From assembly GCA_004292855.1 (NCBI GenBank), contig RDXN01000078.1, forward strand, positions 1-45,100: a stretch of DNA of 45,100 nt, given 5' to 3'. Shown in pieces: positions 25,911 to 44,658 of the stretch. Below the pieces are notes generated by a model. The model did no database searches. It had not been told where the DNA came from and saw nothing but the letters and a program-made list of their open reading frames with translations. The stretch is from Cytophagales bacterium (lineage in GTDB: Bacteria; Bacteroidota; Bacteroidia; Cytophagales; Spirosomataceae). Numbering within the stretch: the stretch's first letter is position 1; each line of letters starts with the position of its first letter. The position numbers and the translations under genes are program-made.

Positions 25911-26020
25911 TTAGTTTTTCACAATCTCGCCCTGCACCGTGCGGCTGCAACCTGTGCCGTCGCGGACGATGATGATGATGATGAAGGGGCCACCCCGCTT
26001 GATGGTGAACACCAGCGCGG
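25911..26020 (-). pseudogene. Remnant of shared surface-protein 3' end (copy 1)
   Basis: The minus strand reads VFTIKRGGPF, then five Ile codons, then VRDGTGCSRTVQGEIVKN and a stop at 25911-25913. This is the last third of the roughly 95-residue C-terminal domain of the genes at 26811, 33512 and 40195, in an open frame but without the rest of a gene. The (ATC)5 run is an expansion not present in the intact copies. The upstream part has been replaced by the promoter of the PD-(D/E)XK-like gene at 26076. Confidence 0.8.
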
Positions 26021-26047
26021 AAGTAGGCGTTGTTGCTCTGAACGTCG

Positions 26048-26055
26048 TATCTTTG
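26048..26055 (+). promoter_or_regulatory. -7 box of PD-(D/E)XK-like gene, copy 1
   Basis: TATCTTTG matches TAnnTTTG, 20 bp before the ATG at 26076. A TTG at 26030-26032 is somewhat close (15 bp) for a -33 element. From about this box onward the sequence is duplicated at 38583-39340. Confidence 0.45.
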
Positions 26056-26075
26056 CCTATAAACCGAATAAGGCA

Positions 26076-26723
26076 ATGACCACGCTGGAAAAATCATTTG
26101 TCACCTGTACGATCAAGTATCTTGAAAAAACCTTCAAGCTACAGGAACAAAATACACTGCCCTCGCTCGATGCCTGGTTGGCGATAGAAACTCCCATTTC
26201 GGACTTTGAACGGCAGGCTTTGCTGCATTACCAGCAAGTGCTTCAATTCAATTACCGAGACTGGTACGAAACCGAATTAGACTCTCACTTCATCGGTCCC
26301 ATATTTGCCCTTGTCAATTTCTCAACTCCCCTTTTCAATCATTTCGAGGAGCGTGAACTCTCGGCAGTGGTCGATGATATTCGGCTCTTTGGCCGTCCTG
26401 ATGGTCTCATAGCCAGTGGCCGGCGCGACCCAGAGGCTCCTTACTTCGCCTTTCAAGAGTACAAACGAAATATTGATCCTAACGGAGACCCAGCCGGCCA
26501 GTGCCTTGCCGCTATGCTGGTGGGCCAGACTCTAGGCGACAACCCCATGCAACCGCTGTATGGTTGCTTTGTGGTGGGTGACCGCTGGCAGTTTATGACA
26601 CTCGAAGGCCGCCATTACGCCATCAGTCCCGGCTTTCTGGCTACCTCTGATGATCTATTTGGCATTTTTCGTATTCTTAAAGCCCTCAAACAAATCGTCG
26701 CCGAGCGTGTAGGTGCGGTTTAA
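26076..26723 (+). CDS. PD-(D/E)XK-like protein, copy 1
   Basis: Encodes 215 residues, not recognised as a named family. The segment RPDGLIAS (Asp109), then an 18-residue gap, then FQEYK (Glu128, Lys130) followed by a helix beginning GQCLAAML fits the core of the PD-(D/E)XK nuclease superfamily, so a nuclease-like fold is inferred. No signal peptide or membrane segment is present, so it is cytoplasmic. A second copy at 38610-39257 differs at only 9 residues. Both copies lie on the plus strand among minus-strand surface-protein genes, each preceded by a remnant of their shared 3' end and followed by the same terminator hairpin. This points to segmental duplication or a mobile cassette. Confidence 0.82.
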   Translation: MTTLEKSFVTCTIKYLEKTFKLQEQNTLPSLDAWLAIETPISDFERQALLHYQQVLQFNYRDWYETELDSHFIGPIFALVNFSTPLFNHFEERELSAVVDDIRLFGRPDGLIASGRRDPEAPYFAFQEYKRNIDPNGDPAGQCLAAMLVGQTLGDNPMQPLYGCFVVGDRWQFMTLEGRHYAISPGFLATSDDLFGIFRILKALKQIVAERVGAV

Positions 26724-26751
26724 GACCAGAGCAAATCACTTACCGATCCCC

Positions 26752-26783
26752 AAAAAAAACGCCTGACTCAGTGAGTCAGGCGT
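26752..26783. terminator. Bidirectional terminator hairpin, copy 1
   Basis: ACGCCTGACTCA / TGAGTCAGGCGT (26759-26770, 26772-26783) follows an A8 run. On the minus strand this gives a stem followed by T8, a good intrinsic terminator for the NHL gene ending at 26811; it also closes the plus-strand gene ending at 26723. The same hairpin recurs at 39297-39321 and 40148-40172. Confidence 0.85.
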
Positions 26784-26810
26784 TTCCGGTTTAAATGCAT
26801 TCCTACTCTA

Positions 26811-28949
26811 CTATCGTACCACAATTTCCCCCTGCACCGTGCGGCTACAACCTGTGCCGTCGCGGACGAGGATCGTGAAAGGGCCACCCCGTTGGATGGT
26901 GAAGATACCGTTGTCGCTAAAGAAAATCTGGGTAATCTGGAAGCCGTTGATTCGGTCCAGCACTGACCCATACTCGAAACTGCTGCCCCCCAACACCTGA
27001 AACTGCTGCCCCGGTGTGCCCGGAACCGTGATCGTGGCCGTGCCTGCACCTGCCACCACCGTCGCGGAGTTGTTGAACACCATTGTCACGGCAGGAAGCG
27101 GAATGCCAATGCCGCCGATGGTGAGTGAGGTAGCCGTGGCCGAACAGCCGTTGGTGGCCGTAGCACTCAGGCCGTAAGTCCCGGAAACCGACACCACCCG
27201 CGTGGGCGCACTGCTGGCATCGTCCCACCCAACGGTGACTCCCGGCTGCACATTGGCCGTAAGCGTGATCGAAGGTATGCCACAACTCAGACCCGATGCC
27301 GAAGCCCCAATGCTCACTACGGGCGGGGCCGTGTTGCTCTGCACCGTGGTGGTGGTGCTGCTGTTACAGCCGGTGGTGAGGTTAGTGATGGTCACCGAAT
27401 AGGGACCGTTGCCAGCAACGGTGGCCGTGCCAGCCGTGGGGTTCGGGCTGGTGAGACCCGTACCGGCAAAAGCATAAGAAAACGACCCCGCGCTGCTGGT
27501 GGTGGCCGTAAGTGTAACGGCGGTTTGGGCGCAGGTGAGCGTGCCGCCAGCCACCAGCGAGGGGTTGGCGGGTGGCGCGCCGACCGTGAGGCTCACCGTG
27601 GCCGTAGCCGTGTTGGAGGCCATATCCGAAAGGGTGACGGTGAGCGTTTGCACGCCCGTTACGCCCGAATTGGCCGACACCGACACCGCCGAGGTAGAAC
27701 CCCCTGCCGTGATGGCAATGCCTGCCGGAGCCACCCAAGTGTAGGAGTAGGAGTCGGACGGCAGGCCGAGGTATCCGCCCGAAGCCGTAACCGAGGCTAT
27801 GCTGGTGGGGGTGCAGGTGGGGTTGGGACTGGCCGAGGTGCTAAGGCTGAGGGGGGCCACAAACTGCTGAATCCGGTTGTTGTACTCGTCCGCCACAAAG
27901 AGATCGCGACCTTTCACAAACACAGTCCTGGGGGCATATAACTGATTGGCAGCCGAGCCGTAGCCCCCGGCCACGGTGATGCCATTGGTGCTGGAGGTGG
28001 AGTTGGGCGGAAACTGCTGGATCCGGTGGTTGTTAAAGTCCGCTACAAGCAGGTTGCCCGACCCGTCCACACACACACCCAAAGGGGCTTTTAACTGATT
28101 GGCATCCGAGCCGACGCCATTGCCCCCGGCCACGGTAGAACCGTTCGTACCGGCGGTAGAGGTGGGCGGAAATTTCTGAATCCGATTGTTGCGTGAATCC
28201 GCCACATAGATATTGTCCGCCCCATCCACATACACCCCAAAAGGGGAATTCAACTCATTGGCTGCCGAGCCGGAGGTTGGCCCCCCGGCCACGGTGGAAC
28301 CGGCGGTGCCGGCAGTGGAGGTGGGCGGAAACTTCTGGATCCGGTTGTTGTTATTGTCCGTTACATAAATATAGCCTCCTGTGTCCACAAATAGACCATA
28401 AATGCCATCCAACTCATTGGCTCCTGAACCACTGGTTCCTGTTCCGGCCACGGTGGAACCGGCGGTGCCGGCGGTAGAGTTGGGCGGGAATTTCTGAATC
28501 CGATAGTTGGACAGGTCCGCCACATAGATATAGCCCTCTCTATCCACAAACACACAAGTAGGTCTGGTCAATTGATTGGGTGCCGAGCCAGAGGTTCCTG
28601 TTCCGGCCACGGTGGAACCATTGGTGGTGGAGGTAGAATTAGGTGGAAACTTCTGGACCCGGTCGTTGCGGAAGTCTGCCACATAGACATAGCCCGCCCC
28701 ATCCACAAATACACTATGAGGGAGATCCAACTGATTGGCTGCTGTGCCGGAGGTTGGACTACCCGCACGGGTGATGCCGTTGGGATAGTAGGTCTGGGCC
28801 TGAACGGTGGTTGCTATCAGCAGGGCTATACTCAGCACCAGAAGCCAGCCCCAGGCCAACAAATGAAAAAGCCCAGACGCATTGGCGGGGCTAAAACAGG
28901 AGAAAAAAGACGCGGCACGTAGCCAGTGGTTTGGTAAAGTGGGTTGCAT
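26811..28949 (-). CDS. Secreted six-bladed NHL-propeller surface protein
   Basis: Encodes 712 residues. The signal peptide is unusually long: MQPTLPNHWLRAASFFSCF... with about 30 residues before the hydrophobic core and cleavage near VQA-QT. It resembles those of the genes at 33512 and 40195. Residues about 60-360 are six NHL repeats of about 53 residues (ANQL..P..VFVD..GY.YVAD..N.RIQKFPP), giving a six-bladed propeller. Three beta-sandwich stalk domains follow (SYTWVAPAGI..., LTCAQTAVTLTA..., LSCGIPSITLTAN...), very similar to the glycine-rich protein at 33512. The last 95 residues are the shared TVQG-ending domain. It is presumably at the cell surface; the ligand is unknown. No TACCCG palindrome is visible upstream. 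Confidence 0.88.
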   Translation of the reverse strand: MQPTLPNHWLRAASFFSCFSPANASGLFHLLAWGWLLVLSIALLIATTVQAQTYYPNGITRAGSPTSGTAANQLDLPHSVFVDGAGYVYVADFRNDRVQKFPPNSTSTTNGSTVAGTGTSGSAPNQLTRPTCVFVDREGYIYVADLSNYRIQKFPPNSTAGTAGSTVAGTGTSGSGANELDGIYGLFVDTGGYIYVTDNNNNRIQKFPPTSTAGTAGSTVAGGPTSGSAANELNSPFGVYVDGADNIYVADSRNNRIQKFPPTSTAGTNGSTVAGGNGVGSDANQLKAPLGVCVDGSGNLLVADFNNHRIQQFPPNSTSSTNGITVAGGYGSAANQLYAPRTVFVKGRDLFVADEYNNRIQQFVAPLSLSTSASPNPTCTPTSIASVTASGGYLGLPSDSYSYTWVAPAGIAITAGGSTSAVSVSANSGVTGVQTLTVTLSDMASNTATATVSLTVGAPPANPSLVAGGTLTCAQTAVTLTATTSSAGSFSYAFAGTGLTSPNPTAGTATVAGNGPYSVTITNLTTGCNSSTTTTVQSNTAPPVVSIGASASGLSCGIPSITLTANVQPGVTVGWDDASSAPTRVVSVSGTYGLSATATNGCSATATSLTIGGIGIPLPAVTMVFNNSATVVAGAGTATITVPGTPGQQFQVLGGSSFEYGSVLDRINGFQITQIFFSDNGIFTIQRGGPFTILVRDGTGCSRTVQGEIVVR

Positions 28950-29001
28950 AAAGTATATGAGAGAGGCTTAGATTTGATTACGGTGATTGAGGGGGTAAAA
29001 G

Positions 29002-29117
29002 GGGCTGACGCATAGCCCTTCGACAGGCTCAGGGTGACAGTCACCTTGTAAGTTAGTAGGGAAATAGATTCAATTTCCCGGTCACCCTGAGCTTGTCGAA
29101 GGGCTATGCGTCAGCCC
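29002..29117. repeat. Inverted repeat with 37-bp arms (CTTCGACA..CTCAGGGTGAC type)
   Basis: Arms at 29002-29038 and 29081-29117 match with one mismatch around a 42-bp centre. The core (CCCTTCGACA.GCTCAGGGTG) resembles a repeat known to be widely dispersed in many bacterial genomes. It begins 20 bp beyond the stop of the metalloprotease gene (29137) and probably serves as its terminator, upstream of the NHL gene. Confidence 0.85.
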
Positions 29118-29136
29118 TTTTCTTCTAAAAAATCCA

Positions 29137-32100
29137 TTACTCCTTCACCACCTTCACGCTCTGGCTATGCTGCTCGTCGGTGGCCCGCAAAATGAACAGG
29201 CCGCCAGGCTGCGCCGAGAGATCGAAGGTCTCGCGGTGGTCGGCGGTTTGCGGCTGCACCCGGCGGGTGGCCACCTTCCGGCCCGATACGTCCACCACTG
29301 ATAACTCCAGCGATTTGCCCTGTGCGCCCGCTACCACAACCTCCAGCGGGCCGCGCGTTGGGTTGCCGTTCACCGACACCTGCCAGAGCGTGGTTTCCTC
29401 CGCCATGCGGGCCATGCCCATACCGCAGGCCGCCCGGATATTCCAGGTGAAGTACGCCGAGCGCGTGGCCGCGTCCTGTACCGTCAAGGTGCTCACGTTG
29501 CGGTCGAAGGGGAAGCTGTAGCGCGTACCCACTTGCCCGTTGCCCGTGACGCCCACAATCAGAAGCGGGTTGAAGGGCACCAGCGTGGCTACCGTTGGGG
29601 TCACCACAAAGTCGACCCGGCTCAACATGGGCGAAGGATTGATGGTGCAGGTGAAACTATTGATTGTCAGGCTCGACGCAGGCGTGGGCGGTACAACAAC
29701 GGTTGGCGAAGGCGGCACGACCACCGTAGGCGAAGGCGGTTGCGTGGTACCGCAAGCTGCCCGGATGTCCCACACAAAATAGGTGGAGCGGTTCGTTGCA
29801 TTCTGCACCGTGATGCTGTTCACGTTGCGGTCGAAGGGGAAGCTGTAGCGTTGCCCTAATTGGCCGTTGCCCGTAACGCCCACCATCAGGATTGGGGGCA
29901 GGGCGGGCACAAACGTTCCGTTTTTATAACCCAGCACAAAGTCCACCCGGCTCAGAGCTGTTGTATTGCTCAGGTTACAGGTAAAGCTCGTCACGGTCAG
30001 GTTTTCCGGCGTGCTGGGCGTGACTGGCGGGGTTGGCGCATCGCCCAGGATGGTAATCAGGGCCGAGCCTTCGGCGGGGTCCAGGTCGTAGCCCTCCTCG
30101 TCAATCAGCGTAATCAGGATGGTCTCGTCCTGTTCCGACGAATTTTCGTCCACAATCGGGATAATCCGCACATCGACCGTGCGTTGTCCGTCGAGGAAAG
30201 TCAGCGAACCGGGCAGTTCTACATAGTCTACCCCCGGAATGGCCGAGCCTTCGATGGCATAATCGATCACCAGCCGCCCTCTCGATGAGTTGCGTTCAAA
30301 CTGAACGATGCCCTCATCTACGTTACCGGCATCGGCAGCCACACGAGCACCCTGCGCGGGCTTGGAGGTAGTCCGGCGTTCGCTCGCCGTTGCATCGGTG
30401 GCTTGCACACCCACCACAGGCGCAGCCCCAGGGGCCGTTGCTGTAATGGTTACGGTTGCCGTTACGGTCTGATTGGTGGGTGGTGTTGCGTCCGTCACCA
30501 CAATCGTAAAGGTCTGCACACCGGGATCGATGCTATTAAACGTAACGACATTGCCACTGGACGAGAACCCGGCCAACGCACCATTCAGCCTGAAATTGTA
30601 AGCATAGGGTGCGCGTCCGCCCGATGCCACTACCGTAACGCTCAAGGTGGTGCTGGTGATGTTCGTTGCCGAGGGAATCAGGTTTACCACCATCGGAATG
30701 GGGGCTACGGTAAACAAAAATGTCGAAGCGACTGTCAGGTTGCCGGGGTCCGTAGCAATGACCGTTACCGTTTGCGGACCCGACGTACCGGGCTTGCCGC
30801 TAATGACGCGGGTGTCGGGGTTGATCGACATTGACGCGGGCAGGCCACGGGCCGTGTAGGTCAACGCCTGATTTTCAGGATCGCTGAACGCTGGTACAGT
30901 AAACGTAAAGTCGGTATCCATCGTACCCGTCTGGTTCGGGATGGCTACGGCAACGGGTGGCTGGTTGGCTGGATCGGCGATGGTGAAGTTCACGTTCGAG
31001 ATGTCGAAGAAAATGTTCCCTACGGCCTCTACCTTGATCCGGCACCGATTGTTCGTTATACTAGGAAGCGTGATGGGTTCGCTGCCGTCGTTGGGTGTAC
31101 TGGCCAGCAACTCGGTTGAGAAGGTTTGTCCGCCGTCGGTCGAGAGTGAAATCCGCACGTTGGCGCAGTTGATCGGAGCCTTATCGGTATCGACCACGTT
31201 CCAGGTCACGGTCTGCTGGTTTCCGCCGACTAGCTGCGAATAGCTGTCGAACGACGTCAACCGAAACGCGCCGGGCGTGTTCACAACCGTCACGGTGGTG
31301 GCGGCTTCGGCATTGCCCCCGCGCCGGTCCCGCACCGAAACGCGGAAGTTCATTGTCCGGGCCACTGTTGGGAGCCGCTCGCCCAGCACGCACGTTTTTC
31401 CATCCTGGCAAAAAGCTCCCGGTGCCCCCGTTGGGTGAATACCCTGATAGGTAAGCGAGGGCTGGTTTTCGCCGGGGGTGGCATTAGCCTGTGGATTCAG
31501 AATAAACGCCAGGCTGGGGAACGTGCGTTGATTGCTTGCAACGGGCGAATAAGCCCGGAACAAAGGCCGCAACACGCCATCATCGTCCACATCGTAGGTA
31601 TTGACCGGCACGCCCCGCACACCCGAAGCCGAGGGTGCCCGGTCGAATTGTTCCCAGGAATACAGCAGGTTGGGTACGTCGGTAGCATCGGCATCATTGC
31701 CCGTTGCTGTTAGCGTGAAGGGCGTTAGCCGGGGAATGCTATAGGCTGGTCCTGCCGAGATGGTCGGAATGGCGTTGGTGCCCGCCGACGTTCCGCAACC
31801 AGCAGCCCCACCGTTCTCAGCCGAGTTGTTCAAATGGTACTGTGCCTGTTTGAGGCTGGCGATGTGAAAAGGAGGCAGGACCGGGTCGACGTACCGCTGG
31901 AGGTTTCGGTCCGAGCAGATACCCACATAACTCATAATAGTCGAACCCGAAGCGGTTTCGTAGGCCTGAGCACCCTCGCGGGTGGTGCAGGCTCCCGACG
32001 CATCGGACTGGTTGTAGGTGTGGTCCATACCAAACTGATGGCCAATTTCGTGGGCCACATAATCCACCACAAAGGGGTCGCCCGTGTCGGTGCCACGGGC

Positions 32101-33168
32101 ACTATAGCCCTGTCCTTTACTAGCGTTATCGCACAACGACGATTTAGCGGCTACCCCCCCCCCGGTTGTTCCGTAGAGGTGTCCGATGTCGTAGTTGGCG
32201 GCCCCAACCCGGCTGTTCAGGGTATTGTGATTAACGGTTAGCTGGGTGCTATTATCCGTATTGTCGTAGGGGTCGGTAGCGGGGTCGTCGTACAGGATAT
32301 TGTTCGCGCCCGAAACCGCTGGATTGGCCAGCATAAAACTCGACGAAAGTTCCCGCTCAAAGATGCCATTGAGCCGGTTCACGGTGGTAACCAGCACGGC
32401 CAGCGCGTTGGTCCGAACCTGCGCCATGTCTGTTACCCTGGGGAAGCCCCCGGCGTTGCGTGTCCATTCGCCGGTAGTGGCCACAGCCAACCGAAACGTC
32501 CGGCGGGTGGCACCGAGTTTCACCACCACCGTATCGCTCGGTACGGTGTTAGCCATCCGGGCCGTACCCGTTTTCAGGCCCGGCAGTTCGGGCTTTCCGG
32601 TAGTGCTCACCGAGCCGCAGCGGAGCATCCCAAACCCCTTAGCCTCGACTACTTTGCGGGCATCGCGGGCAAAATAGCTCGTATGCACGTTGCTGGCGGC
32701 ATCGAACGAGGTCTTCTTGATGTAGACCGCGTCGCCATCGACGCCCCAGATCAGGGCTTCAAAGCCCAGGCTCGTCAAACTCATCCGAATCACGTAATTA
32801 GGATGCGTGATACCTTGCCCCTCGTAGGTTTTGAACGTGGGGTTTTCGGCGGCCAACGCGGGCGACAGCACCTGCGTCTCGCGAACGGTAAAGGTTTCTG
32901 TGGTCCCGTTGGGCATGGGAAGTTCTAACCGAAGCCCACGGGCCGAGGATTGCGTTGGCCGGGGGGCCTGGGTCAGATAGGCGCGAAGTGACGTTATCTG
33001 GACCTGATAAAAGCGGGCATTGGCGATGCCGGGATCAGTGGTCGTGGCCACCCGCGCCTGCCCCGACGATAGGGGCGTGAAATAGCCCGTTTGGGCCTGA
33101 ATAGTAGTTGCGATCAGCAGCAGCATCGGCAGCAGCCACTGACCACGCAGTAAAGGTTTGGCACTCAT
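29137..33168 (-). CDS. T9SS-exported reprolysin-like metalloprotease
   Basis: Encodes 1343 residues with a signal peptide (cleavage near IQA-QT). The catalytic zinc motif HEIGHQFGMDH lies near residue 372, in a reprolysin/M12B-like domain, with many Cys residues nearby. Downstream come Ig/cadherin-like beta domains (around 736-826, PDTRVISGKPG), a Calx-beta-like domain (around 935-1045), and two tandem roughly 90-residue repeats (around 1060-1250; NGQ.G.RYSFPFDRNV..) joined by a Pro/Thr/Val linker (PPSPTVVV repeated). The C-terminal 80 residues (LELSVVDVSGRKVATRRV...GGLFILRATDEQHSQSVKVVKE) are a type A T9SS sorting domain, so it should be exported by T9SS. A candidate operator and -7 box lie upstream (33250-33303). 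Confidence 0.93.
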   Translation of the reverse strand: MSAKPLLRGQWLLPMLLLIATTIQAQTGYFTPLSSGQARVATTTDPGIANARFYQVQITSLRAYLTQAPRPTQSSARGLRLELPMPNGTTETFTVRETQVLSPALAAENPTFKTYEGQGITHPNYVIRMSLTSLGFEALIWGVDGDAVYIKKTSFDAASNVHTSYFARDARKVVEAKGFGMLRCGSVSTTGKPELPGLKTGTARMANTVPSDTVVVKLGATRRTFRLAVATTGEWTRNAGGFPRVTDMAQVRTNALAVLVTTVNRLNGIFERELSSSFMLANPAVSGANNILYDDPATDPYDNTDNSTQLTVNHNTLNSRVGAANYDIGHLYGTTGGGVAAKSSLCDNASKGQGYSARGTDTGDPFVVDYVAHEIGHQFGMDHTYNQSDASGACTTREGAQAYETASGSTIMSYVGICSDRNLQRYVDPVLPPFHIASLKQAQYHLNNSAENGGAAGCGTSAGTNAIPTISAGPAYSIPRLTPFTLTATGNDADATDVPNLLYSWEQFDRAPSASGVRGVPVNTYDVDDDGVLRPLFRAYSPVASNQRTFPSLAFILNPQANATPGENQPSLTYQGIHPTGAPGAFCQDGKTCVLGERLPTVARTMNFRVSVRDRRGGNAEAATTVTVVNTPGAFRLTSFDSYSQLVGGNQQTVTWNVVDTDKAPINCANVRISLSTDGGQTFSTELLASTPNDGSEPITLPSITNNRCRIKVEAVGNIFFDISNVNFTIADPANQPPVAVAIPNQTGTMDTDFTFTVPAFSDPENQALTYTARGLPASMSINPDTRVISGKPGTSGPQTVTVIATDPGNLTVASTFLFTVAPIPMVVNLIPSATNITSTTLSVTVVASGGRAPYAYNFRLNGALAGFSSSGNVVTFNSIDPGVQTFTIVVTDATPPTNQTVTATVTITATAPGAAPVVGVQATDATASERRTTSKPAQGARVAADAGNVDEGIVQFERNSSRGRLVIDYAIEGSAIPGVDYVELPGSLTFLDGQRTVDVRIIPIVDENSSEQDETILITLIDEEGYDLDPAEGSALITILGDAPTPPVTPSTPENLTVTSFTCNLSNTTALSRVDFVLGYKNGTFVPALPPILMVGVTGNGQLGQRYSFPFDRNVNSITVQNATNRSTYFVWDIRAACGTTQPPSPTVVVPPSPTVVVPPTPASSLTINSFTCTINPSPMLSRVDFVVTPTVATLVPFNPLLIVGVTGNGQVGTRYSFPFDRNVSTLTVQDAATRSAYFTWNIRAACGMGMARMAEETTLWQVSVNGNPTRGPLEVVVAGAQGKSLELSVVDVSGRKVATRRVQPQTADHRETFDLSAQPGGLFILRATDEQHSQSVKVVKE

Positions 33169-35747: not shown

Positions 35748-36395
35748 TCAATCACTTTCTGTTAGCTTATCCTCCAGCTTGTTTAGAAAATCGTAGAACT
35801 GCTTTTCGGTATTGAACGGGAGCTTTCGTTTAATATTCCGCCGATGGGCCTGTACCGTGTGGTAGCTTAGTGAAAGCTGGTCGGCCATCTGCTCCGACGA
35901 TAGCCCCGCTTTGACCAGTTTCAGAATCTCCACTTCGCGCCGGGTGAGCTGGTATTTGAGCCAGAAATAGTCGGGCGGCACCGACGGCGACACACTCACA
36001 ACGTCGGTCTCGAACACCCGCTCACCCAGCATCACCCATTCGAGCAACAGCAGCAGCCGCCTGGCTGAAATCGACTTGGCCAGGTAGCCATCCACGTGCA
36101 GGGCGTCGAAGCGGGCAACTTCCGCTGGCTCGGCATACATGCTCACCACCACAATCCGGCAGGGGAAAGACAGTTGCCGGATCTGCCGCACCACGGCCAA
36201 CCCATCCAGATTAGGCATGTTAAAATCCACCAGTACCAGGTCGGGTTTGTGTTGCGCACAAACGGCCTGCGCCTGTCGGCTGTCGTAGACCTGCTCCACC
36301 ACCCTGAAGTCAGTGGTGTCGTTGAGGATCGTTTTGAGGCCATCGCTAAAGAGCTGATGATCGTCGATGAGGATGGTTCGGTAGGGCTTCGTCAT
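35748..36395 (-). CDS. LuxR/NarL-type response regulator
   Basis: Encodes 215 residues. The receiver domain has the acidic pair in LIDDHQLF, the phosphoacceptor Asp in LVLVDFNMPNLDG, and the late Lys in YLAKSIS. The LuxR-type helix-turn-helix is LTRREVEILKLVKAGLSSEQMADQLSLSYHTVQAHRRNIKRKL. The gene overlaps the end of the 7TMR-DISM kinase gene by 50 bp, so the two are surely co-expressed partners. Candidate targets are the identical palindromes upstream of the kinase gene and the metalloprotease gene. Confidence 0.96.
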   Translation of the reverse strand: MTKPYRTILIDDHQLFSDGLKTILNDTTDFRVVEQVYDSRQAQAVCAQHKPDLVLVDFNMPNLDGLAVVRQIRQLSFPCRIVVVSMYAEPAEVARFDALHVDGYLAKSISARRLLLLLEWVMLGERVFETDVVSVSPSVPPDYFWLKYQLTRREVEILKLVKAGLSSEQMADQLSLSYHTVQAHRRNIKRKLPFNTEKQFYDFLNKLEDKLTESD

Positions 36396-38286
36396 GGTGA
36401 ATGGTTAAAAGAACGCTCGTTCCGGTGGGGGCCGGGTCGAAGAGAAGGTCAATCTGAGCCAGTTCGGCCCGTTTCGTCATGTTTTGCAGGCCAACGCCAT
36501 TGGTACGGGCCGAGTCGAAGTCGAAACCAACCCCGTCGTCTTCCACCGACACCTCTACTGAGTCATCATCCCCGAAAAACTGTACGTACACCTGGCTCGC
36601 GCCCGAATGCCGCACAATATTAGTAAACAACTCCTGCACAATGTGATAAATGCTCTGTTGCTGAAGGGTAGGCAGTTGGTTGGCCCGGTTGTTGGAATGA
36701 TCTTTAAACACAAACCGGATGTCGGAGAAATCATTGAACCGCCCCACCAGCGTTTCCACTTTCTCGGTCAGGGTGCGGTTGTTATCTTTGATCAGGTTAT
36801 GGCTTAGAAAACGCAGTTCGGTAATGGCGGTATGAATAAGCTGGAGGCTCTTGTCGGCGTCGGCCTGCGGGCGGCTGAGGTAGCCCTTAGCCGCAGCCAG
36901 GGTGTTGCCCACCTGATCGTGCAGGTCGCGGCCAATGCGTTCGACCTCGGCCCGGCGTAGGGCGTTAGCTTCCGCCCGCGCCTGCCGAACCTCTTTCAGC
37001 ATCTGCCGTTTGCTGATGTGCTCTCGTCGAAATTGCACCACGGTCAGGTAGGTGAGCAACCCAATGAGCAAGAGGGGGTTTTGGGCCGGGGCTGGGTATT
37101 TAAGCAACGACACGTTGTGGGTCATCAGGAACTCAACCGCTTTGGTCACGACCATATCACCCGCAAACAGCAACATAAATACCCCCATGTAGGCAATCCC
37201 TTTCCGCCGATAGGCCAGAAAACTGAAATAAGCCATCCAGCACAAGCCAATATGAGTCATCACCATCAGGGTCCGGTTGATGGGTACGTTCAGGTATGCG
37301 TAAACCGGGGGTGGCAACAAATGCAGTAATACGCAAGCCAGATTAACCCCAATGATGGTCCACATAGCGGGTTTGTACCAGCGCAAGCCCCGAACAGCCG
37401 ACTTAAAGGCCTGATACAGATACAGTTGCGCTATAGCGTTGAGTAGGAACCAGAAACAGGAGCTAATGTTACTGCTGTTGAACGACAGGAAGTTGGGATA
37501 CGGAAGCCCGCTCAGGTAGCCGTAATAGGCACAGGCCATCAGCATGGTCACCAGCATCACGTAGCCGTAGGTACGCATGAGCAGACTGGGGGTGGCAAGC
37601 CCAACCACCAGCGAAACCAGCCCAATGATCAGGCAACTGAATATAACCAGCAATTCTTCCATCGTGTTGGCCAGCAATCGCCCCGTAAAGAAGCTCCGAA
37701 GGCTCAGTTGCAGATCGAACTCGTGGTAGCCTACATAGCCATTGGTTCGGAGTAATATCCCCGTGGTTTGGCCCGGTGGCAGGATGAGGGGGAAGGCATA
37801 TCGATAACTGAGAAAGAACCGATCTGCCAGGGGCGTACTCTGGCGGAGGGTGGCCACTGAGTCGAGCCGAGCCAATCGTGGCCCGACCTGTACCAGAAAC
37901 AGCGTGGCCCGCCCGCAGCGATAGGGCGGGAACGACAGCACCACCTCTTTGGGTGTAGCGGTGGGGTTGGTCAGCGGAAAATAAACCCAGCCTTCCGGCA
38001 CGTTGGACGAGTGTCCGTGTATAACCGCATGAGGGTATTCATTGGGTTTGAACACCCGCCCGATTCGTTGCCGGAGCGTGTCCGTTGACTCACCCGGAAT
38101 GGGCCGAAAGTCCGGTGCCGCCAGCACCCGGTTGTTGAGCGAAACCCGTTCAAACGAATCGGTCAGGCGGTAGCCAACCCCGTCTGGGATAACGGTCGAT
38201 GGTCGGGAAACCAGATTCAGAAGCGTTACGGTCAGCAGGCCTATTCCGTACAGAATCAGGCCAACGCGCAATCGAAGCAGAGACAT
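36346..38286 (-). CDS. 7TMR-DISM sensor histidine kinase (HisKA_3 type)
   Basis: Encodes 646 residues from the ATG at 38286 (MSLLRLRVGLIL); the open frame runs further upstream only because it joins a surface-gene remnant. After one N-terminal helix comes a periplasmic 7TMR-DISMED2-like domain (around 40-200: EGWVYFPLTNPT...VVLSFPPYRCGRATLF), then seven membrane helices (around 205-425), a short coiled coil, and a HisKA_3 domain with the phospho-His in ERIGRDLHDQVGNTLAAAKGY (near 454). The NarL-type ATPase domain (FTNIVRHSGAS, VEDDGVGFD, GLQNMTKRAE) ends it. DISM receptors are thought to sense carbohydrates or other small ligands. Its promoter carries the operator copy B, so it is probably autoregulated. 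Confidence 0.95.
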   Translation of the reverse strand: MSLLRLRVGLILYGIGLLTVTLLNLVSRPSTVIPDGVGYRLTDSFERVSLNNRVLAAPDFRPIPGESTDTLRQRIGRVFKPNEYPHAVIHGHSSNVPEGWVYFPLTNPTATPKEVVLSFPPYRCGRATLFLVQVGPRLARLDSVATLRQSTPLADRFFLSYRYAFPLILPPGQTTGILLRTNGYVGYHEFDLQLSLRSFFTGRLLANTMEELLVIFSCLIIGLVSLVVGLATPSLLMRTYGYVMLVTMLMACAYYGYLSGLPYPNFLSFNSSNISSCFWFLLNAIAQLYLYQAFKSAVRGLRWYKPAMWTIIGVNLACVLLHLLPPPVYAYLNVPINRTLMVMTHIGLCWMAYFSFLAYRRKGIAYMGVFMLLFAGDMVVTKAVEFLMTHNVSLLKYPAPAQNPLLLIGLLTYLTVVQFRREHISKRQMLKEVRQARAEANALRRAEVERIGRDLHDQVGNTLAAAKGYLSRPQADADKSLQLIHTAITELRFLSHNLIKDNNRTLTEKVETLVGRFNDFSDIRFVFKDHSNNRANQLPTLQQQSIYHIVQELFTNIVRHSGASQVYVQFFGDDDSVEVSVEDDGVGFDFDSARTNGVGLQNMTKRAELAQIDLLFDPAPTGTSVLLTIHHDEALPNHPHRRSSAL

Positions 38287-38311
38287 TGACGGTGGGTGAT
38301 TGAGGCAATGG

Positions 38312-38319
38312 CAAATATA
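38312..38319 (-). promoter_or_regulatory. -7 box of the kinase/response-regulator operon
   Basis: Minus-strand TATATTTG is a perfect TAnnTTTG match, 26 bp before the start codon at 38286. Its centre lies 35 bp from the centre of the palindrome at 38343-38358, and no separate -33 TTG is visible, as expected for an activator-dependent promoter. Confidence 0.6.
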
Positions 38320-38338
38320 CGTATCGCAAACTAAGCAT

Positions 38339-38366
38339 ACCCCTACCCGAACGGGTAGTTTTGGGG
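38339..38366. promoter_or_regulatory. Candidate operator, copy B (CTACCCG-AA-CGGGTAG)
   Basis: This 28-bp stretch is identical to 33276-33303, including the flanks ACCC and TTTTGGGG. It lies directly upstream of the kinase promoter, centred near -42 by the TATATTTG box. The same placement at two otherwise unrelated promoters argues for a functional site rather than a dispersed repeat. Confidence 0.6.
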
Positions 38367-38385
38367 TTGAACGGTCGTAAAACGG

Positions 38386-38540
38386 ACAAAAAAAACGCCT
38401 GACTCCCTGCACCGTGCGGCTGCAACCCGTAGCGTCGCGCGCGATGGATGATAACGAAGGGGCCACCTCGTTTGATGGTGAAAATGCCATTCGTATTTCG
38501 TCGGTCTGCCGAATCTCGTAGCCGTTGGTATGGTAGTGTC
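38386..38540 (-). pseudogene. Remnant of shared surface-protein 3' end (copy 2)
   Basis: The minus strand shows NGYEIRQTD, then after one frameshift TNGIFTIKRGGPFVII, then after another RDATGCSRTVQGV, so it is a decayed copy of the C-terminal domain. Its stop codon is gone: the sequence joins half of the ACGCCTGACTC hairpin (38386-38404) with the other half deleted. This gap (38287-38609) holds the kinase promoter and operator, this remnant, and the promoter of the PD-(D/E)XK-like gene copy 2; no intact gene is present. Confidence 0.82.
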
Positions 38541-38562
38541 AAAAGTCCTTTAGCCAGGTGGG

Positions 38563-38590
38563 TTGTTCTTAAAAAATGACTGTAACTTTG
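38563..38590 (+). promoter_or_regulatory. Promoter of PD-(D/E)XK-like gene, copy 2
   Basis: TTG at 38563-38565 and TAACTTTG at 38583-38590, 17 bp apart, fit the Bacteroidota pattern. The ATG follows at 38610, giving a leader of about 13 nt. The -7 box and the ATAAACCGA after it are shared with copy 1; the -33 region is not. Confidence 0.55.
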
Positions 38591-38609
38591 TCATAAACCG
38601 ACTCAGACA

Positions 38610-39257
38610 ATGACCACGCTGGAAAAATCATTTGTCACCTGTACAATTAAGTATCTCGAAAAAACCTTCAAACTACAGGAGCAAAACGCGCTACCCTCGC
38701 TCAATGCCTGGTTGGCGATAGAGGCTCCTATCTCCGACTTTGAACGGCAGGCTTTGCTGCATTACCAGCAAGTACTTCAATTCAATTACCGAGACTGGTA
38801 CGAAACCGAATTAGACTCTCACTTTATCGGTCCCATATTTGCCCTTGTCAATTTCTCAACTCCCCTTTTCAATCACTTCGAGGAGCGTGAACTCTCGGCA
38901 GTGGTCGATGATATTCGGCTCTATGGACGTCCCGATGGCCTCATAGCCAGCGGTCGGCGCGACCCGGAAGCTCCTTACTTTGCGTTTCAGGAATACAAAC
39001 GAAATATCGACCCCAATGGCGATCCCGCCGGGCAGTGCCTTGCGGCTATGTTGGTTGGCCAAACTCTGGGCGACGACCCCATGCAACCGCTCTATGGTTG
39101 CTTTGTGGTGGGTGACCGCTGGCAGTTTATGGCCCTTGAAGGCCGCCACTACGCCATTAGTCCTGGCTTTTTGGCCACCTCCGACGACCTATTTGCTATC
39201 TTCCGCATCCTCAAAGTCCTCAAACAACTAGTAGCCGAGCGAGTAGGCGCGGTTTAA
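38610..39257 (+). CDS. PD-(D/E)XK-like protein, copy 2
   Basis: Encodes 215 residues that differ from the copy at 26076-26723 at nine positions (27, 32, 39, 105, 155, 175, 196, 203, 207), all conservative or mild and none in the putative core Asp109/Glu128/Lys130. Many DNA differences are synonymous, which suggests that both copies are under selection for the protein. The similarity extends past the stop through the sequence TTAAGAC.AGAGCAAAT to the shared hairpin and into a surface-gene 3' end. That 3' end is intact downstream of copy 1 but truncated here by vapC. Function unknown; a nuclease-like fold is inferred. Confidence 0.82.
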   Translation: MTTLEKSFVTCTIKYLEKTFKLQEQNALPSLNAWLAIEAPISDFERQALLHYQQVLQFNYRDWYETELDSHFIGPIFALVNFSTPLFNHFEERELSAVVDDIRLYGRPDGLIASGRRDPEAPYFAFQEYKRNIDPNGDPAGQCLAAMLVGQTLGDDPMQPLYGCFVVGDRWQFMALEGRHYAISPGFLATSDDLFAIFRILKVLKQLVAERVGAV

Positions 39258-39288
39258 GACTAGAGCAAATTACCTGCTGATAACCCCC

Positions 39289-39321
39289 CAAAAAAAACGC
39301 CTGACTCAGGGAGTCAGGCGT
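39289..39321. terminator. Bidirectional terminator hairpin, copy 2
   Basis: After an A8 run, ACGCCTGACTC/GAGTCAGGCGT (39297-39321) forms the same hairpin as at 26759-26783. It closes the plus-strand PD-(D/E)XK-like gene and would terminate minus-strand transcription arriving from vapBC. Confidence 0.82.
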
Positions 39322-39342
39322 TTCCGGTTTTGCCTATTTACA

Positions 39343-39424
39343 CTACCTCACCACCAGCACCCCCTGCACCGTGCGGCTGCAACCCGTAGCGTCGCGCACG
39401 GTGATCGTGAAGGGGCTACCTCGC
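39343..39424 (-). pseudogene. Remnant of shared surface-protein 3' end (copy 3)
   Basis: Minus strand reads RGSPFTITVRDATGCSRTVQGVLVVR and a stop (39343-39345) without frameshift. It is the last 26 codons of the shared C-terminal domain. The rest of the gene is missing: the stop of the VapC-type toxin gene lies 4 bp upstream of the break. The fragment could still be translated only if read through from another gene. Confidence 0.82.
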
Positions 39425-39428
39425 ACGA

Positions 39429-39818
39429 CTACAACACCGCAGGATTAATGTACTTTAACCCAGAAACACGTTTGAAGTCAGCGTCATTATCGGCCAGTAG
39501 TGTCAGATTATAGACGAGGGCAGTAGCCGCAATAATGGCATCGGGCAATCTTATTTTGATGCCCCGCCGGATCTTGATCGTCCGATCAATGACGGCTTCG
39601 GTCAGGGGAAACTCATAACCACTGGCGATAATGGCCGCAATTCCCTCTTTTTGCGAGGTTGTGTCGGGTTTAAAACTGAGTAGCTCAATACGAACAATGA
39701 CCGAGTAATTAATCTCGCTATCAAAAACAGTTTGCATGAAAGCCAGCCCATTGGTCGGGAACGCATTAGACAGGGCTTTGCTGATGCAACTCGTATCTAG
39801 AAGGTATCTCTCTCCCAT
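39429..39818 (-). CDS. vapC: PIN-domain toxin (VapC/FitB type)
   Basis: Encodes 129 residues from the ATG at 39818 (MGERYLLDTS); the open frame extends 22 codons further upstream into the antitoxin gene. PIN-domain acidic residues are in place: Asp8 in LLDTS, Glu45 in VRIELLSF, Asp93 in RLPDAIIAATAL and Asp110/Asp112 in LLADNDADF. VapC toxins are Mg-dependent ribonucleases, often cutting tRNA. The gene overlaps the upstream antitoxin gene by 22 bp, the usual order for a toxin-antitoxin operon. It ends 4 bp before a truncated surface-gene remnant, so its arrival may have caused that truncation. Confidence 0.88.
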   Translation of the reverse strand: MGERYLLDTSCISKALSNAFPTNGLAFMQTVFDSEINYSVIVRIELLSFKPDTTSQKEGIAAIIASGYEFPLTEAVIDRTIKIRRGIKIRLPDAIIAATALVYNLTLLADNDADFKRVSGLKYINPAVL

Positions 39819-40194: not shown

Positions 40195-43100
40195 CTACCG
40201 ACTCTCGATCGTTCCCTGCACCGTGCGCTGGCAGCCGTTGGCTCCTGTGACGGTGATGGTATATTGACCTACGCGCTGGATGTTGAATACGCCCGTGGTG
40301 TTGGTGTCCACCTGACGAATCTCATAGCCACTCACACGGTCGATCACATTTCTGCGCTCAAACATCATTCCGCCAAAGACCTGGAAAGAAGGCAGGTTGT
40401 TGGGGTCTATGGGGCGGGTGAGCGTAATGAGCGGCATTCCCGGACCAATCATACTCTGCGTGGCTCCACCAAAGAGCAACGTCACGGTAGGTTGGGGAAT
40501 CACCGTCAGGCTGAAAGCCGACGTGGTGGCCGACGTAACGCCATCGCTCACCACCAGCGAGTAGTTGCCGCTTTGCGTGGTCAACACCCCACCCAGCGAC
40601 AGCGTGGCCGTTCGTTGCGCCGTTCCCAACGACGCGCCGTCTTTATACCACTGATACGACGTAACGGGGCTATTGGTGGTGCCGACAACCGAGACCATGC
40701 CCCCCTCGCACACCAGACTGCCACTGGCCGAGAGCGTGGGCGCAACAACCGCTGCCACCACGACCACAGCCGCACTCGCCGTGTTGGAGCAAAGCCCCGA
40801 AACGCCCGTAACCGAGAGCGTGGTGGCCGAGGTCACGCCAGTTAAGATGAGCGGATTCGCGGTCGAATTATCACTCCATGTATAGCTCGTGGCTCCCGAT
40901 GCCGTGAGCGTGACCGAACCGCCCGGCGCAATCGTGAGCGAAGGCGTGGCCGTGATGCTCACCGACACCCCGGCGAAGGTCAGATTAACCGTGGCCGTGG
41001 TTCTAACAGGCGGAGCCGCACCATCTTCCACAATGACCGTCAGGGTGCGAACACCCGAAATGCACACGTTGGCCGCAGCCTGCACCGATGAGCTGTTGGT
41101 GCCGGGTGTCAGCGTAATATCCGACGGGGCCACCCAGGTATAGCTGTAGGGGCCGGTTCCGTTGGTAGCCGTGACGGAGGCCGTGGCCGAGCCGTTGGTG
41201 ACGGGCGTAGCTCCCACCGTGAGCGACAACATGGCGGTTACGCTCACCACTGCCCTTGCCGTGTTGGAACAAAGCCCCGATACGCCCGTGACCGAGAGCG
41301 TGGTGGCCGAGGTCACACCACTCAGCACCACGCTCGTGCTTTGGGTGCCATCGCTCCACGTATAACTAGTTGCCGGTTGGCCGCTGCCACCTGATGCCGT
41401 GAGCGTGACCGAGCCACCCGGCGCAATCGTGAGCGAGGGCGTGGCCGTGACCGTGACCGACACCCCCACAAACGTGAGGCTTACCGTGGCCGAGGTGGTG
41501 ACGGGCGGAGACGCACCCGTATCCGTTGCCAGAACCGTCAGCGTTTGCTGACCCGTAACGCAGGCCGTGGTTGAGACCTGCACCGACGAGCCATTGCCAA
41601 CGGGTGTCAGCACAATTCCCGTTGGGGCTGTCCAGGTGTAGCTATAGGGGCCGGTCCCGTTGACTGCCGTAACGGAAGCCGTGGCCGTGCCACTAGTGAC
41701 GGGCGTAGCCGCCACCGTGAGCGACAACGGGAGGGGGTTCGTAAAGCGGGCCAAGAAATAATCAATAGCCCCTGTTGAAACGAGCGTGTTGCTGGCGGTG
41801 CTGGTCGGTGTGTTGAAGTCGGCGGTGTTCTGGAACTCCCCCGTTACATAAACGCCATCGGTATTGACAGCAATTCCGGAACCAGTTTCGTTGCCTGTTC
41901 CCCCGGCCCGGCGTTGCCACATGGGGGTGCCGGCGTTGTCGTATTTAGCTACGAACACATCCTGCCCACCCGCCCCGATCAGGGTGTTGCTGGCGATGCT
42001 GGTAGGCGTGTTGAAGTCAACAACACCAGCAAACTGCCCCGTTACATAGCTCCCGCTGGCATCGACTGCCAATCCTTGTCCGATATCAAAACCAGTTCCC
42101 CCGGCCCGGCGCAGCCAATTAACCGTTCCTGTGGGGCTATACTGTGCCAGAAATATATCGGCCACACCACTCGCGACAAGGGTGTTGGTGGCCGGGTTAG
42201 ACGTAGGGCTGTTGAAGTCGGCAGTATTCCGGAAGTACCCGGCTACATAAACCCCCATTGCATTCACGCCAATGCCATTACTACCGTCGGTACCTGTTCC
42301 TCCGGCTCGGTTTTGCCACTGCGGGGCGCCAGTTGCGGCATCGTATTTAGCGACGAAGATATCCTGCCCCCCCGCCGACACCAGTGTGTTGGTGGCCGGA
42401 GCTGAGGGCGTGTTGAAGTTGGCCGTATTACTGAATGCCCCTGTCACATAGACATCCGTCGCTGTGGCTGCAATCCCAAAGCCAGCATCACCCGCAGTTC
42501 CTCCGGCCCGGCGCAGCCACTGCAAAGCACCTGAGTTGTTGAATTTAGCCACAAAAATGTCAGTAGATCCATCCGAGATGAGTGTGTTACTGGCTGGATT
42601 TGAAGGTGTCTCGAAATTGGCTGTACTCTGGAACTGCCCTGTCACATAAATATCCGTTCCATTTACTGCAATCGCTTCGCCACGATCAATGATCGTCCCT
42701 CCGGCGCGTTTGAGCCACACCAAATTGCCTGTTGCAGCATCGTATTTGGCCACGAAGATATCCTGCACACCCGCCGAGACAAGTAGCGAACTGCTGGCCG
42801 GGTTAGAGGGAGTCTCGAAGTTGGCCGTGCTGCTGAAGAAGCCCGTTACATAGACCTCCGACCCCGACACAGCAATGCCTTTACCCCAATCAACGCCCGT
42901 TCCTCCGGCGCGTTTGAGCCACTGCAACACACCCGCTGAGTTGTATTTGACCACAAAGATGTCCTCTCCACCCGCCGAGGTAACAGCAGAGCCGCTAATG
43001 ACGGCATCACCCGTGAAGTAGCCCGTCACATACACATTGCCCGATGCGTCGGTGGCCGTTGCCAACCCGGCATCATTGCCCGAGCTGCCTGCGCCACCGC

Positions 43101-44658
43101 CAGATTGGAGCCAGCCCGTTGCCCCCGTGCTGCCGTTGAAATTGGCCAGGAAGATGTCGGTCCCGCCAACGGAGGTAATCTCATTGCTGCCCGTTGCCGA
43201 GGGCGTGTTGAAGTTGGCCGTTCCCTGGAACGAACCCGCCACATAGACCTGTGTGCCAGAAACCGCAATGCCGTAGCCAATATCAGAAACCGAAGACGTT
43301 GCACCCGATGCCCCTGCGCGTTTCTGCCACTGGATGGCACCTGAGGAGCTATACTTGGCCACAAAGATGTCGTAGGTCCCCGACGCGGTCAGCGTATTGG
43401 TGCCTGGGGCTGTGGGGTTGAAATCAGCCGTGCCCGTGAAATAGCCCGTTACATAGACGTTGCCCGATGCATCGGCCACAATCCCCTGACCAGCATCACT
43501 ACCTACTGACTTGACCTGTTTCACCCATACCAAACTCCCCCCCGTAGCAGCATCGTAATTGGCCACGAAAATGTCATTACCACTTGATGCGGTAAGCGAA
43601 AGGGAGGACGAAAACTCCGTGGTACCGCCAAAACTCCCCGTCACATACACGAAACCGCTACGCGTTGCAATCCCATAGCCATACGTACTGTTCGTGCTGC
43701 CTCCTCCGGCGCGTTGCTGCCACAGCGGGCTGCCCGATAGGTCGTACCCAGCCACGAACATATCACTAAAATTACTCGACGCAATCAACTCATTGGAGCC
43801 GGGTGCCGAGGGGGTATTGAAGTTGACCGTGCCACTGAAGGTTCCCGTTATATAAACCCCGTTGCCGTCGAGGGCAATACCGTAGCCCCTTCCTCCGGCG
43901 CGTTTGAGCCATGCTACACCGCCTGCGGCATCGTATTTGACCACGAAGCCGTTACCACCTGCCGAGACGAGGGTGTTGGTGGCGGGGTTAGAAGGCGTAT
44001 TGAAGTTGGCCGTGCTGGAGATATAGCCCGTTACATAAACGTTTTCCGAGGCATCGGCGGTAATGCCCGCGCCCTCATCCGAACCGGTTCCACCGGCGCG
44101 TTGCAGCCGCAACACATTGCCATTGAGGTCGTATTTGGCCACGAATATATCCCTGAACCCGTCGGCGACGAGGGTGTTACTGGCCGGGTTGGACGGGGTG
44201 TTGAAGTTGGCCGTGCTGGCAATGTAGCCTGTCACATAAACCGCCGTCGTGCTAACGGCAATGCTCAGGCCCGCGTCGTCGCCCGTACCCCCGGCGCGTT
44301 TGATCCACTGTAGCGTGCCGGAGGAGTTGTACTTGGCGACGAAGATGTCGGTCCCGCCCGCCGAGGCAACCGCGCTGCCACTGATAGTCGCATTGCTGAG
44401 GAAGTAGCCCGTTACATAGACGTTGCCCGATGCATCGGTGGCCGTTGCCAGCCCGGCATCGTCACTCGATACCACCGGGCCACCTCCCCCGGTGAGGAGG
44501 TCAACGGTTTGGGAGAATGCCGGTCCGGCGGTTGCCAGCACCAGCAGGGTGAGCAGCAGGCCACCCCAAAACGAGAACAGATTGCCCCCACGAACGGGGC
44601 CAAAACAGGAGAGAAAATGCGCGGCTCGTAGCCGGTTAGTAGGTAGATTGGGTTGCAT
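40195..44658 (-). CDS. Giant secreted SBBP beta-propeller surface protein
   Basis: Encodes 1487 residues from the ATG at 44658; an open-frame start at 44715 adds 19 unrelated residues. The long signal peptide (MQPNLPTNRLRAAHFL...FWGGLLLTLLVLATAGPAFSQT) matches that of the glycine-rich protein. Residues about 60-1000 hold 14 SBBP-type blades (VYVTGYF...FNTP...DIFVAKYD..G...W..RAGG). Blades 1 and 8 resemble each other most (DAGLATATDASGNVYVTGYF and ISGSAV), so two seven-bladed propellers arose by duplication. Two repeated PKD-like domains (SYTWTAPTGI, SYTWVAPSDI), two Ser/Thr-rich beta domains and an Ig-like domain (SYQWYKDG) form a stalk. The shared TVQG-ending 95-residue domain closes the protein. 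It is presumably on the cell surface. Confidence 0.88.
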   Translation of the reverse strand: MQPNLPTNRLRAAHFLSCFGPVRGGNLFSFWGGLLLTLLVLATAGPAFSQTVDLLTGGGGPVVSSDDAGLATATDASGNVYVTGYFLSNATISGSAVASAGGTDIFVAKYNSSGTLQWIKRAGGTGDDAGLSIAVSTTAVYVTGYIASTANFNTPSNPASNTLVADGFRDIFVAKYDLNGNVLRLQRAGGTGSDEGAGITADASENVYVTGYISSTANFNTPSNPATNTLVSAGGNGFVVKYDAAGGVAWLKRAGGRGYGIALDGNGVYITGTFSGTVNFNTPSAPGSNELIASSNFSDMFVAGYDLSGSPLWQQRAGGGSTNSTYGYGIATRSGFVYVTGSFGGTTEFSSSLSLTASSGNDIFVANYDAATGGSLVWVKQVKSVGSDAGQGIVADASGNVYVTGYFTGTADFNPTAPGTNTLTASGTYDIFVAKYSSSGAIQWQKRAGASGATSSVSDIGYGIAVSGTQVYVAGSFQGTANFNTPSATGSNEITSVGGTDIFLANFNGSTGATGWLQSGGGAGSSGNDAGLATATDASGNVYVTGYFTGDAVISGSAVTSAGGEDIFVVKYNSAGVLQWLKRAGGTGVDWGKGIAVSGSEVYVTGFFSSTANFETPSNPASSSLLVSAGVQDIFVAKYDAATGNLVWLKRAGGTIIDRGEAIAVNGTDIYVTGQFQSTANFETPSNPASNTLISDGSTDIFVAKFNNSGALQWLRRAGGTAGDAGFGIAATATDVYVTGAFSNTANFNTPSAPATNTLVSAGGQDIFVAKYDAATGAPQWQNRAGGTGTDGSNGIGVNAMGVYVAGYFRNTADFNSPTSNPATNTLVASGVADIFLAQYSPTGTVNWLRRAGGTGFDIGQGLAVDASGSYVTGQFAGVVDFNTPTSIASNTLIGAGGQDVFVAKYDNAGTPMWQRRAGGTGNETGSGIAVNTDGVYVTGEFQNTADFNTPTSTASNTLVSTGAIDYFLARFTNPLPLSLTVAATPVTSGTATASVTAVNGTGPYSYTWTAPTGIVLTPVGNGSSVQVSTTACVTGQQTLTVLATDTGASPPVTTSATVSLTFVGVSVTVTATPSLTIAPGGSVTLTASGGSGQPATSYTWSDGTQSTSVVLSGVTSATTLSVTGVSGLCSNTARAVVSVTAMLSLTVGATPVTNGSATASVTATNGTGPYSYTWVAPSDITLTPGTNSSSVQAAANVCISGVRTLTVIVEDGAAPPVRTTATVNLTFAGVSVSITATPSLTIAPGGSVTLTASGATSYTWSDNSTANPLILTGVTSATTLSVTGVSGLCSNTASAAVVVVAAVVAPTLSASGSLVCEGGMVSVVGTTNSPVTSYQWYKDGASLGTAQRTATLSLGGVLTTQSGNYSLVVSDGVTSATTSAFSLTVIPQPTVTLLFGGATQSMIGPGMPLITLTRPIDPNNLPSFQVFGGMMFERRNVIDRVSGYEIRQVDTNTTGVFNIQRVGQYTITVTGANGCQRTVQGTIESR

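Follow-up and report, generated by a model that had tools for sequence, protein, structure and literature searches.

Why do large exported proteins with unrelated heads share one and the same C-terminal end? The question is raised by a 45,100-nt stretch of DNA, hereafter the window, which comprises bases 1-45100 of contig RDXN01000078.1 (C29 in our set) in the draft genome of a Cytophagales bacterium of the Spirosomataceae (GCA_004292855.1; 6.25 Mb in 108 contigs). An earlier note on this DNA had reported that four genes finish with a common domain and had suggested an undescribed sorting, anchoring or attachment function. We found that a domain of about 95 residues does end some 20 large exported proteins of this genome, and that it is most likely a lineage-specific signal of the type IX secretion system (T9SS), with secretion itself deduced from where the domain sits and on which proteins.

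The domain copies and the proteins that carry them

The four intact copies of the window all run to the stop of their genes, at 8640, 26811, 33512 and 40195, and score 118-130 bits with a profile of 20 copies from this genome, the four themselves being among the 20. On the plus strand, the copy at 8338-8637 (129 bits) ends gene 5980-8640, which consists of Ig-like domains and a head that looks pectin-lyase-like by eye. The other three are on the minus strand: 26814-27107 (130 bits; the copy modelled with AlphaFold) on gene 26811-28949 with an NHL repeat head, 33515-33796 (118 bits) on gene 33512-35647 with an ALK/LTK-type Gly-rich head, and 40198-40500 (125 bits) on gene 40195-44715 with an SBBP repeat head. 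The same profile recovers three decayed copies where they had been reported, all on the minus strand. The remnant at 25911-26042 still covers the final 40 positions of the model and has kept a stop of its own (profile match 25917-26042, E 4.3e-7), that at 39343-39429 has model positions 70-96 and a stop (match 39349-39429, E 9.0e-6), and that at 38386-38541 is split over two frames (match 38401-38532, E 6.8e-4). Thus, the count of seven copies in 45 kb stands, four intact and three remnants. The interval 25911-44658 originally assigned to them covers all but the gene ending at 8640, which falls outside it. The DRINGYEIRQVD stretch is indeed a feature of the domain, but it is degenerate in the 33512 copy (VCVNGYQINQFD). 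As a contrast, the metalloprotease 29137-33168 carries, as had been noticed, a different domain, T9SS type A (29146-29364, minus strand), for which PF18962 (28.2 bits, cut-off 27) and TIGR04183 (23 bits, cut-off 23) both reach their cut-offs.

Beyond the window, we collected 66 non-identical copies scoring at least 55 bits: 21 come from this genome, 42 from Flavobacterium sp. SUN052 and 3 from a metagenome-assembled genome of the same genus as ours, Rudanella sp. CAN_BIN22 (G054, as matched by contig number and position; 71% complete). The set includes the disrupted copy L012, three short frames (L053, L060, L136) and 11 SUN052 copies in which the first 13 positions of the model, or more, are missing. 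The 38 matches below 55 bits that were dropped are mostly Ig-like repeats and a second kind of tail (tail-2, below), yet some are real fragments: two pieces of L014, one of L046, one of L001, and the 25911 and 38386 remnants. In 65 of the 66 copies, 0-7 residues separate the end of the match from the stop. The exception is L012, on a 4.2-kb contig, where the frame continues for 84 residues past the match. The profile search thus upholds the proposed C-terminal fixation, and the domain is not one that frequents the middle of proteins.

The carriers appear to be exported. A strong hydrophobic stretch lies near the start of 51 of the 58 frames whose start is within the fetched DNA, and 46 of these 51 also have an AxA-type site. 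This home-made hydrophobicity scan is a crude signal-peptide test, which a 104-aa fragment and some frames of doubtful start also passed. The signal peptide expected on every carrier was therefore found on most testable frames but not on seven, of which two are fragments and three look signal-peptide-like by eye. The heads comprise NHL, SBBP, ALK/LTK-type Gly-rich, GH13 and M43 types, others having been judged by eye, so one conserved end does sit on exported proteins with unrelated heads. None of the 66 domain proteins matches a type A or type B model at E<=0.01; the same type A model finds the window metalloprotease.

A modified Ig-like repeat as a candidate secretion signal

To which family does the domain belong? 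With 20 copies as queries, Pfam and NCBIfam gave no convincing match, only a few weak unrelated ones (best E 0.0013, for one copy); PF06832 (BiPBP_C) matched 4 of the 20 weakly (best E 0.0078). There was no match among PDB sequences at E<=1, and at the same threshold the NCBIfam T9SS models matched none of the 20 copies, four unrelated single matches being all that appeared. Our literature search, which did not cover subscription papers and preprints, found no description of the domain. Membership in T9SS type A or type B was rejected as well. PF18962 and TIGR04183 (type A) and PF13585 and TIGR04131 (type B) matched 0 of 20 copies at E<=1, and hhalign gave probabilities of 2.0 against 28 type A rows and 1.6 against 17 type B rows, both sets coming from this genus. 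Type A against type B, run as a positive control, reached a probability of 94.8.

A relationship emerged elsewhere. Against 57 Ig-like repeats from the bodies of the same proteins, hhalign returned a probability of 96.8 (E 2.5e-10), the homology covering the second half of the domain. From the 54 copies in our alignment (A2), AlphaFold predicts a nine-stranded β-sandwich of about 95 residues (pLDDT 92.6, pTM 0.81); with 20 rows and another copy, pLDDT was 81.3. Foldseek neighbours, in the best 50 rows per run, are mostly Ig-, PKD- and other sandwich domains, with best E-values of 8.5e-3 and 4.1e-3 (the latter to an Ig-domain protein) and none <=0.001. Profile homology and the predicted Ig-like sandwich both place the domain in the Ig-like repeat superfamily. 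In terms of sequence, the domain is an Ig-like repeat modified by an insertion (the DRINGYEIRQVD region) and has one invariant cysteine. This cysteine is present in all 54 aligned rows, in which two columns are invariant and twelve more conserved at >=90%; 62 of the 66 copies have exactly one cysteine and four have two. By comparison, 49 of the 57 Ig-like repeats have two, a proportion biased by a collecting pattern that favours a late GC motif. The description of the domain as novel therefore holds in that it is unnamed and terminal, but not for its second half, which is an Ig-like repeat also found inside proteins.

This kinship opens the way to the main rival of a secretion function, namely, that the domain is an independent Ig-like cap or adhesion module at the end of large surface proteins, where it would bind sugar, matrix or another of its copies, export depending on something else. 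Both the hhalign result and the Foldseek neighbours fit such a cap, and the single invariant cysteine could link copies. Ordinary Ig-like modules, however, are internal, whereas this one is terminal in 65 of 66 copies, and a cap would leave the 66 proteins with neither a type A nor a type B domain.

Known T9SS signals offer a parallel in position and shape. Type A signals are described as seven-stranded Ig-like sandwiches of about 100 residues (PMC10202324, PMC12618676). Like them, the new domain is C-terminal, of similar size, found on signal-peptide-bearing multidomain proteins including those with GH13 and M43 heads, and predicted to be an Ig-like sandwich; unlike them, it has an invariant cysteine (27 of the 28 type A rows have none) and shows no profile similarity. 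With type B (CHU_C) it shares the C-terminal place on large exported proteins, again without profile similarity. The existence of several families of C-terminal domains is taken in PMC12618676 to suggest that the T9SS recognises multiple signals, and a third family, type C, is already in print (PMC10202324), so that a further class would have precedent. For type C (ChiA type, cl41395), the comparison extends to the lack of any NCBIfam T9SS match, in a library that may or may not include a ChiA-type model. Compared with bacterial Ig-like, PKD and SprB-type repeats, to which its second half is homologous, the domain differs by the DRINGYEIRQVD insert, by usually having one cysteine rather than two and by its terminal place.

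A further comparison with type A comes from relatives of the heads. The GH13 head, searched in 58 other genomes, has five relatives. One of them, in G008, has a head 53% identical and a type A end (PF18962 30.4 bits, cut-off 27), while those in G028 and G029 end in an unnamed SGNW tail and in tail-2, respectively, and those in G002 and G038 in no tail recognised by five models. The M43 head was matched 31 times across 19 of 59 genomes, its own genome accounting for five of the matches. For 18 of the 31 we classified the ends with the five models: 2 have the new domain, 9 the SGNW tail, 1 type A, 1 tail-2 (judged solely from frame length, contig and strand) and 5 are unrecognised. The type A case, in G005, has a head 42% identical (PF18962 28.3 bits, cut-off 27). 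Seven of the nine SGNW tails, and the G028 and G029 tails on GH13 heads, are rows of the very models that scored them. Thus, both the GH13 and the M43 family provide one case in which a known T9SS signal stands where the new domain would be, which speaks against an adhesion cap. The tails of unknown role that occupy the same place speak for it and, together with the Ig-like ancestry, make the cap the foremost rival, in our estimate an unlikely one all the same. A third head (L009) had no match at E<=1e-40 in 118 other genomes and hence provides no swap evidence.

The substituting tails deserve a description of their own. The SGNW tail (GNWxDPxxWSCxRVP...RLxLG; alignment A4) occurs twice on the plus strand of the window, at 5543-5767 and 25683-25907, where it ends genes 185-5770 and 23949-25910, as well as on the nine fetched M43 relatives. 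Neither window copy has a Pfam or NCBIfam match. The SGNW model also matches 4 of the 66 domain proteins, the matches shown being internal. Tail-2 (alignment A3) is an Ig-like C-terminal tail ending in VTGxxC, found at L015:5448-5732, at L163:18888-19172 and at G029 loci L172, L180 and L182-L187. All eight G029 matches are C-terminal, one strong and seven at 33-41 bits; for a match in G054 (L173), the frame examined was not the correct one. Tail-2 resembles the new domain in being terminal and related to Ig-like repeats, with a profile link of 94.5 that drops to 38.4 with the G029 rows alone, and differs in its motif and in a late second cysteine; its model matches 37 of the 66 domain proteins, largely through their Ig-like repeats. 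Four further M43 relatives (L144, L153, L155, L156) end, by eye, in a dockerin-like double D-x-N-x-D-G stretch, which a Pfam scan of L144 and L155 did not match.

Does the domain have dedicated machinery? The type A and B domains, PorV and PorP/SprF together indicate a T9SS in its genome. The genome has 52 type A matches at E<=0.001, the three congeners G038, G002 and G054 having 42, 41 and 31; for type B the numbers are 15 against 12, 11 and 9. PorV is represented by one strong and one weak match in each of the four genomes, and PorP/SprF by four genes in each (two of G054's may be pieces of one gene). Those of our genome lie at C26 (two), C1:275144 and C98, none within the fetched domain loci, and their number is the same in domain-free relatives. 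A dedicated PorP/SprF partner in this genome is therefore rejected, there being neither linkage nor an extra copy, which also separates the domain from type B. Type B substrates of F. johnsoniae are reported to depend on cognate PorP/SprF shuttles, true pairs reaching ipTM values above 0.8 and some known substrates being orphans with no linked PorP/SprF gene, and the two types are contrasted as using one general shuttle (type A) and specific ones (type B) (PMC12618676).

Nor did the neighbourhood offer an obvious partner. Among 278 open reading frames of the domain loci of our genome and SUN052 (with two SUN052 locus sets and the G054 loci left out), two-component sensors (8), LytTR regulators (5) and NarL-type regulators (4) form the biggest of the families that recur, the smaller ones having 2-4 members. 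These numbers bear on another alternative, a retention or anchoring domain that keeps its carriers in the periplasm or at the outer membrane, independently of the T9SS. It would fit the terminal position and the signal peptides and could use the invariant cysteine as an attachment point. We regard it as quite improbable, given that regulators make up the biggest neighbour families, that the smaller families suggest no anchoring partner by eye, and that the heads look extracellular (NHL, SBBP, amylase, protease). Sorting or anchoring remains the best guess at function, as first proposed, and no dedicated partner was found. By raw count, not set against a background rate, sensors and LytTR/NarL-type regulators are frequent neighbours of domain genes, as at G143 L057, L138-L141, L157, L158, L160 and L163, and in the window at 8654-9451 and 35751-36395.

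All in all, a T9SS signal is the reading that best accounts for the terminal place, the export, the lack of type A and B domains on the same proteins and the occurrence of type A in this position on related heads; a C-terminal place on signal-peptide proteins in a T9SS-bearing genome is what such signals display. The origin of the domain would lie in the Ig-like repeats with which these proteins are filled. The carriers would cross the inner membrane by the Sec route via their signal peptides, whereupon the T9SS translocon may recognise the terminal β-sandwich. With 21 substrates and no linked PorP/SprF gene in this genome, a general PorV-type shuttle is favoured over dedicated PorP/SprF proteins for handing them on, presumably to the cell surface or the outside. 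Several observations weigh against assigning this function. The hhalign probabilities against types A and B amount to no detectable sequence relation, no T9SS signal was seen among the best 50 of 1356 Foldseek rows, and internal repeats that do not act as signals have a common origin with the domain. Congeners have similar PorV and PorP/SprF numbers whether or not they carry the domain, so that no component surveyed follows its presence. Finally, other unnamed or unrecognised tails replace the domain more often than type A does on the same heads, and the swap is therefore no proof of equivalent function.

Distribution, reshuffling and local duplication

How widespread is the domain? A single-sequence search found 25 places in its own genome at E<=0.01. 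In the bacterial family, a profile search matched 33 of 121 genomes at E<=0.001 (up to 42 candidates scored per genome), with scores above 100 bits confined to our genome (21) and G054 (3). The next best, 38.5 bits in the near-complete congener G002, covers the model partially, inside a 1678-aa frame. Among 395 genomes of the phylum only our own matched at E<=1e-7 (12 candidates scored per genome). One peptide pattern run against 84,980 species genomes hit 19 loci, 16 in SUN052 and 3 in Rudanella sp. CAN_BIN22, and SUN052 has 49 profile matches at E<=0.001. Flavobacterium genomes usually have a low GC content. The SUN052 domain loci have 50-57% GC, and of four gene pairs compared near copies, two are 75-76% identical between SUN052 and our genome (the other two, probably not orthologous, 25-26%); the Flavobacterium label is therefore probably wrong. 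Strong copies were seen in three genomes only, neither of the two near-complete congeners being among them, a narrow spread that counts against a wholly new kind of domain.

In a tree of 54 copies, with few columns and unsettled bootstrap values, the three genomes interleave: there are 17 label changes against a shuffled mean of 18.8, a value as low being reached in 42 of 200 shuffles. Several well-supported groups span genomes. From this interleaving we infer that the family diversified before the three genomes parted, although exchange between genomes would look alike; later growth probably came by tandem duplication, for instance on SUN052 C35. Heads and tails have been reshuffled, since two heads that share 51% identity over 707 residues are followed by domains with no more than 38%, the mean over all domain pairs being about 48%. 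Such pairs, along with tandem clusters, remnants and fragments on small contigs, might suggest a passively spreading gene end, copied by tandem duplication and recombination among repeat-rich genes and having no selected role. This reading we consider very improbable. At a mean pairwise identity of about 48% the domain nevertheless keeps its invariant and near-invariant columns, and its well-supported sub-families span genomes. The small contigs L012 (G000:C85) and L014 (G000:C72) hold disrupted copies, which suggests that the assembly may break at domain repeats.

Duplication has also shaped the window itself. Two units, 26047-26891 and 38582-39423, align at 87%. Each consists of an open reading frame of 215 aa, a hairpin and the last 27 domain codons (stop counted), with a further remnant on the other side. 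The first frame (26076-26723, plus strand), between a remnant and the 3' end of a domain, matches PDDEXK_12 below the cut-off (16.5 of 27 bits); the second (38610-39257, plus strand), between two remnants, is 95.8% identical to it in protein sequence. Neither PHROG nor, as for the domain, plasmids gave a match. The nuclease-like frame could possibly mark a mobile, homing-like insertion aimed at the domain 3' end, but one segmental duplication explains both units as well, and the homing reading is not preferred.

The minus-strand domain genes also share their starts. A DNA repeat (D19; 28885-28952, minus strand) at the start of gene 26811-28949 codes for an extended signal-peptide start, and its counterparts at 35577-35644 (75%) and 44594-44661 (79%) begin the two other genes; by eye, L001 has the same start. 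The last part of the 38386-38541 remnant falls within the first 68 codons of a 714-codon histidine kinase frame (36346-38490, minus strand). As this frame begins inside a decayed domain copy, its longest-frame start is probably wrong; the ATG at 38286, judged by eye, is likelier and would leave the remnant upstream. An inverted repeat with 41-nt arms, 95% complementary, lies between two genes at 28998-29121. Lastly, a 1499-codon frame at 10778-15277 (minus strand) has, by eye, the appearance of a fusion between an RND efflux pump and a TolC-like protein, and its stretch PGPLPTGEG...GRGWGGV resembles the translation of an intergenic repeat that recurs at 21670 and at the start of a frame in L003.

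Implications for T9SS signals

Inventories of the proteins that Bacteroidota secrete commonly rely on type A and B domains and would overlook the 21 or 42 proteins per genome that carry the new domain. More tentatively, there may be a turnover of T9SS signals, in which new classes keep arising from Ig-like repeats in this bacterial family, replace type A on enzymes and spread to dozens of proteins. The translocon might then read the shape of the sandwich, not a fixed sequence, and the cysteine might serve as a covalent handle of a new sort. Two examples of such turnover would be the present domain, in the Rudanella-like lineage, and tail-2, in G029. If the domain is indeed a T9SS signal, the two enzyme families that carry type A in one relative and the new domain in another provide a natural test of translocon recognition, and the domain would show the birth of a secretion signal from a common repeat.
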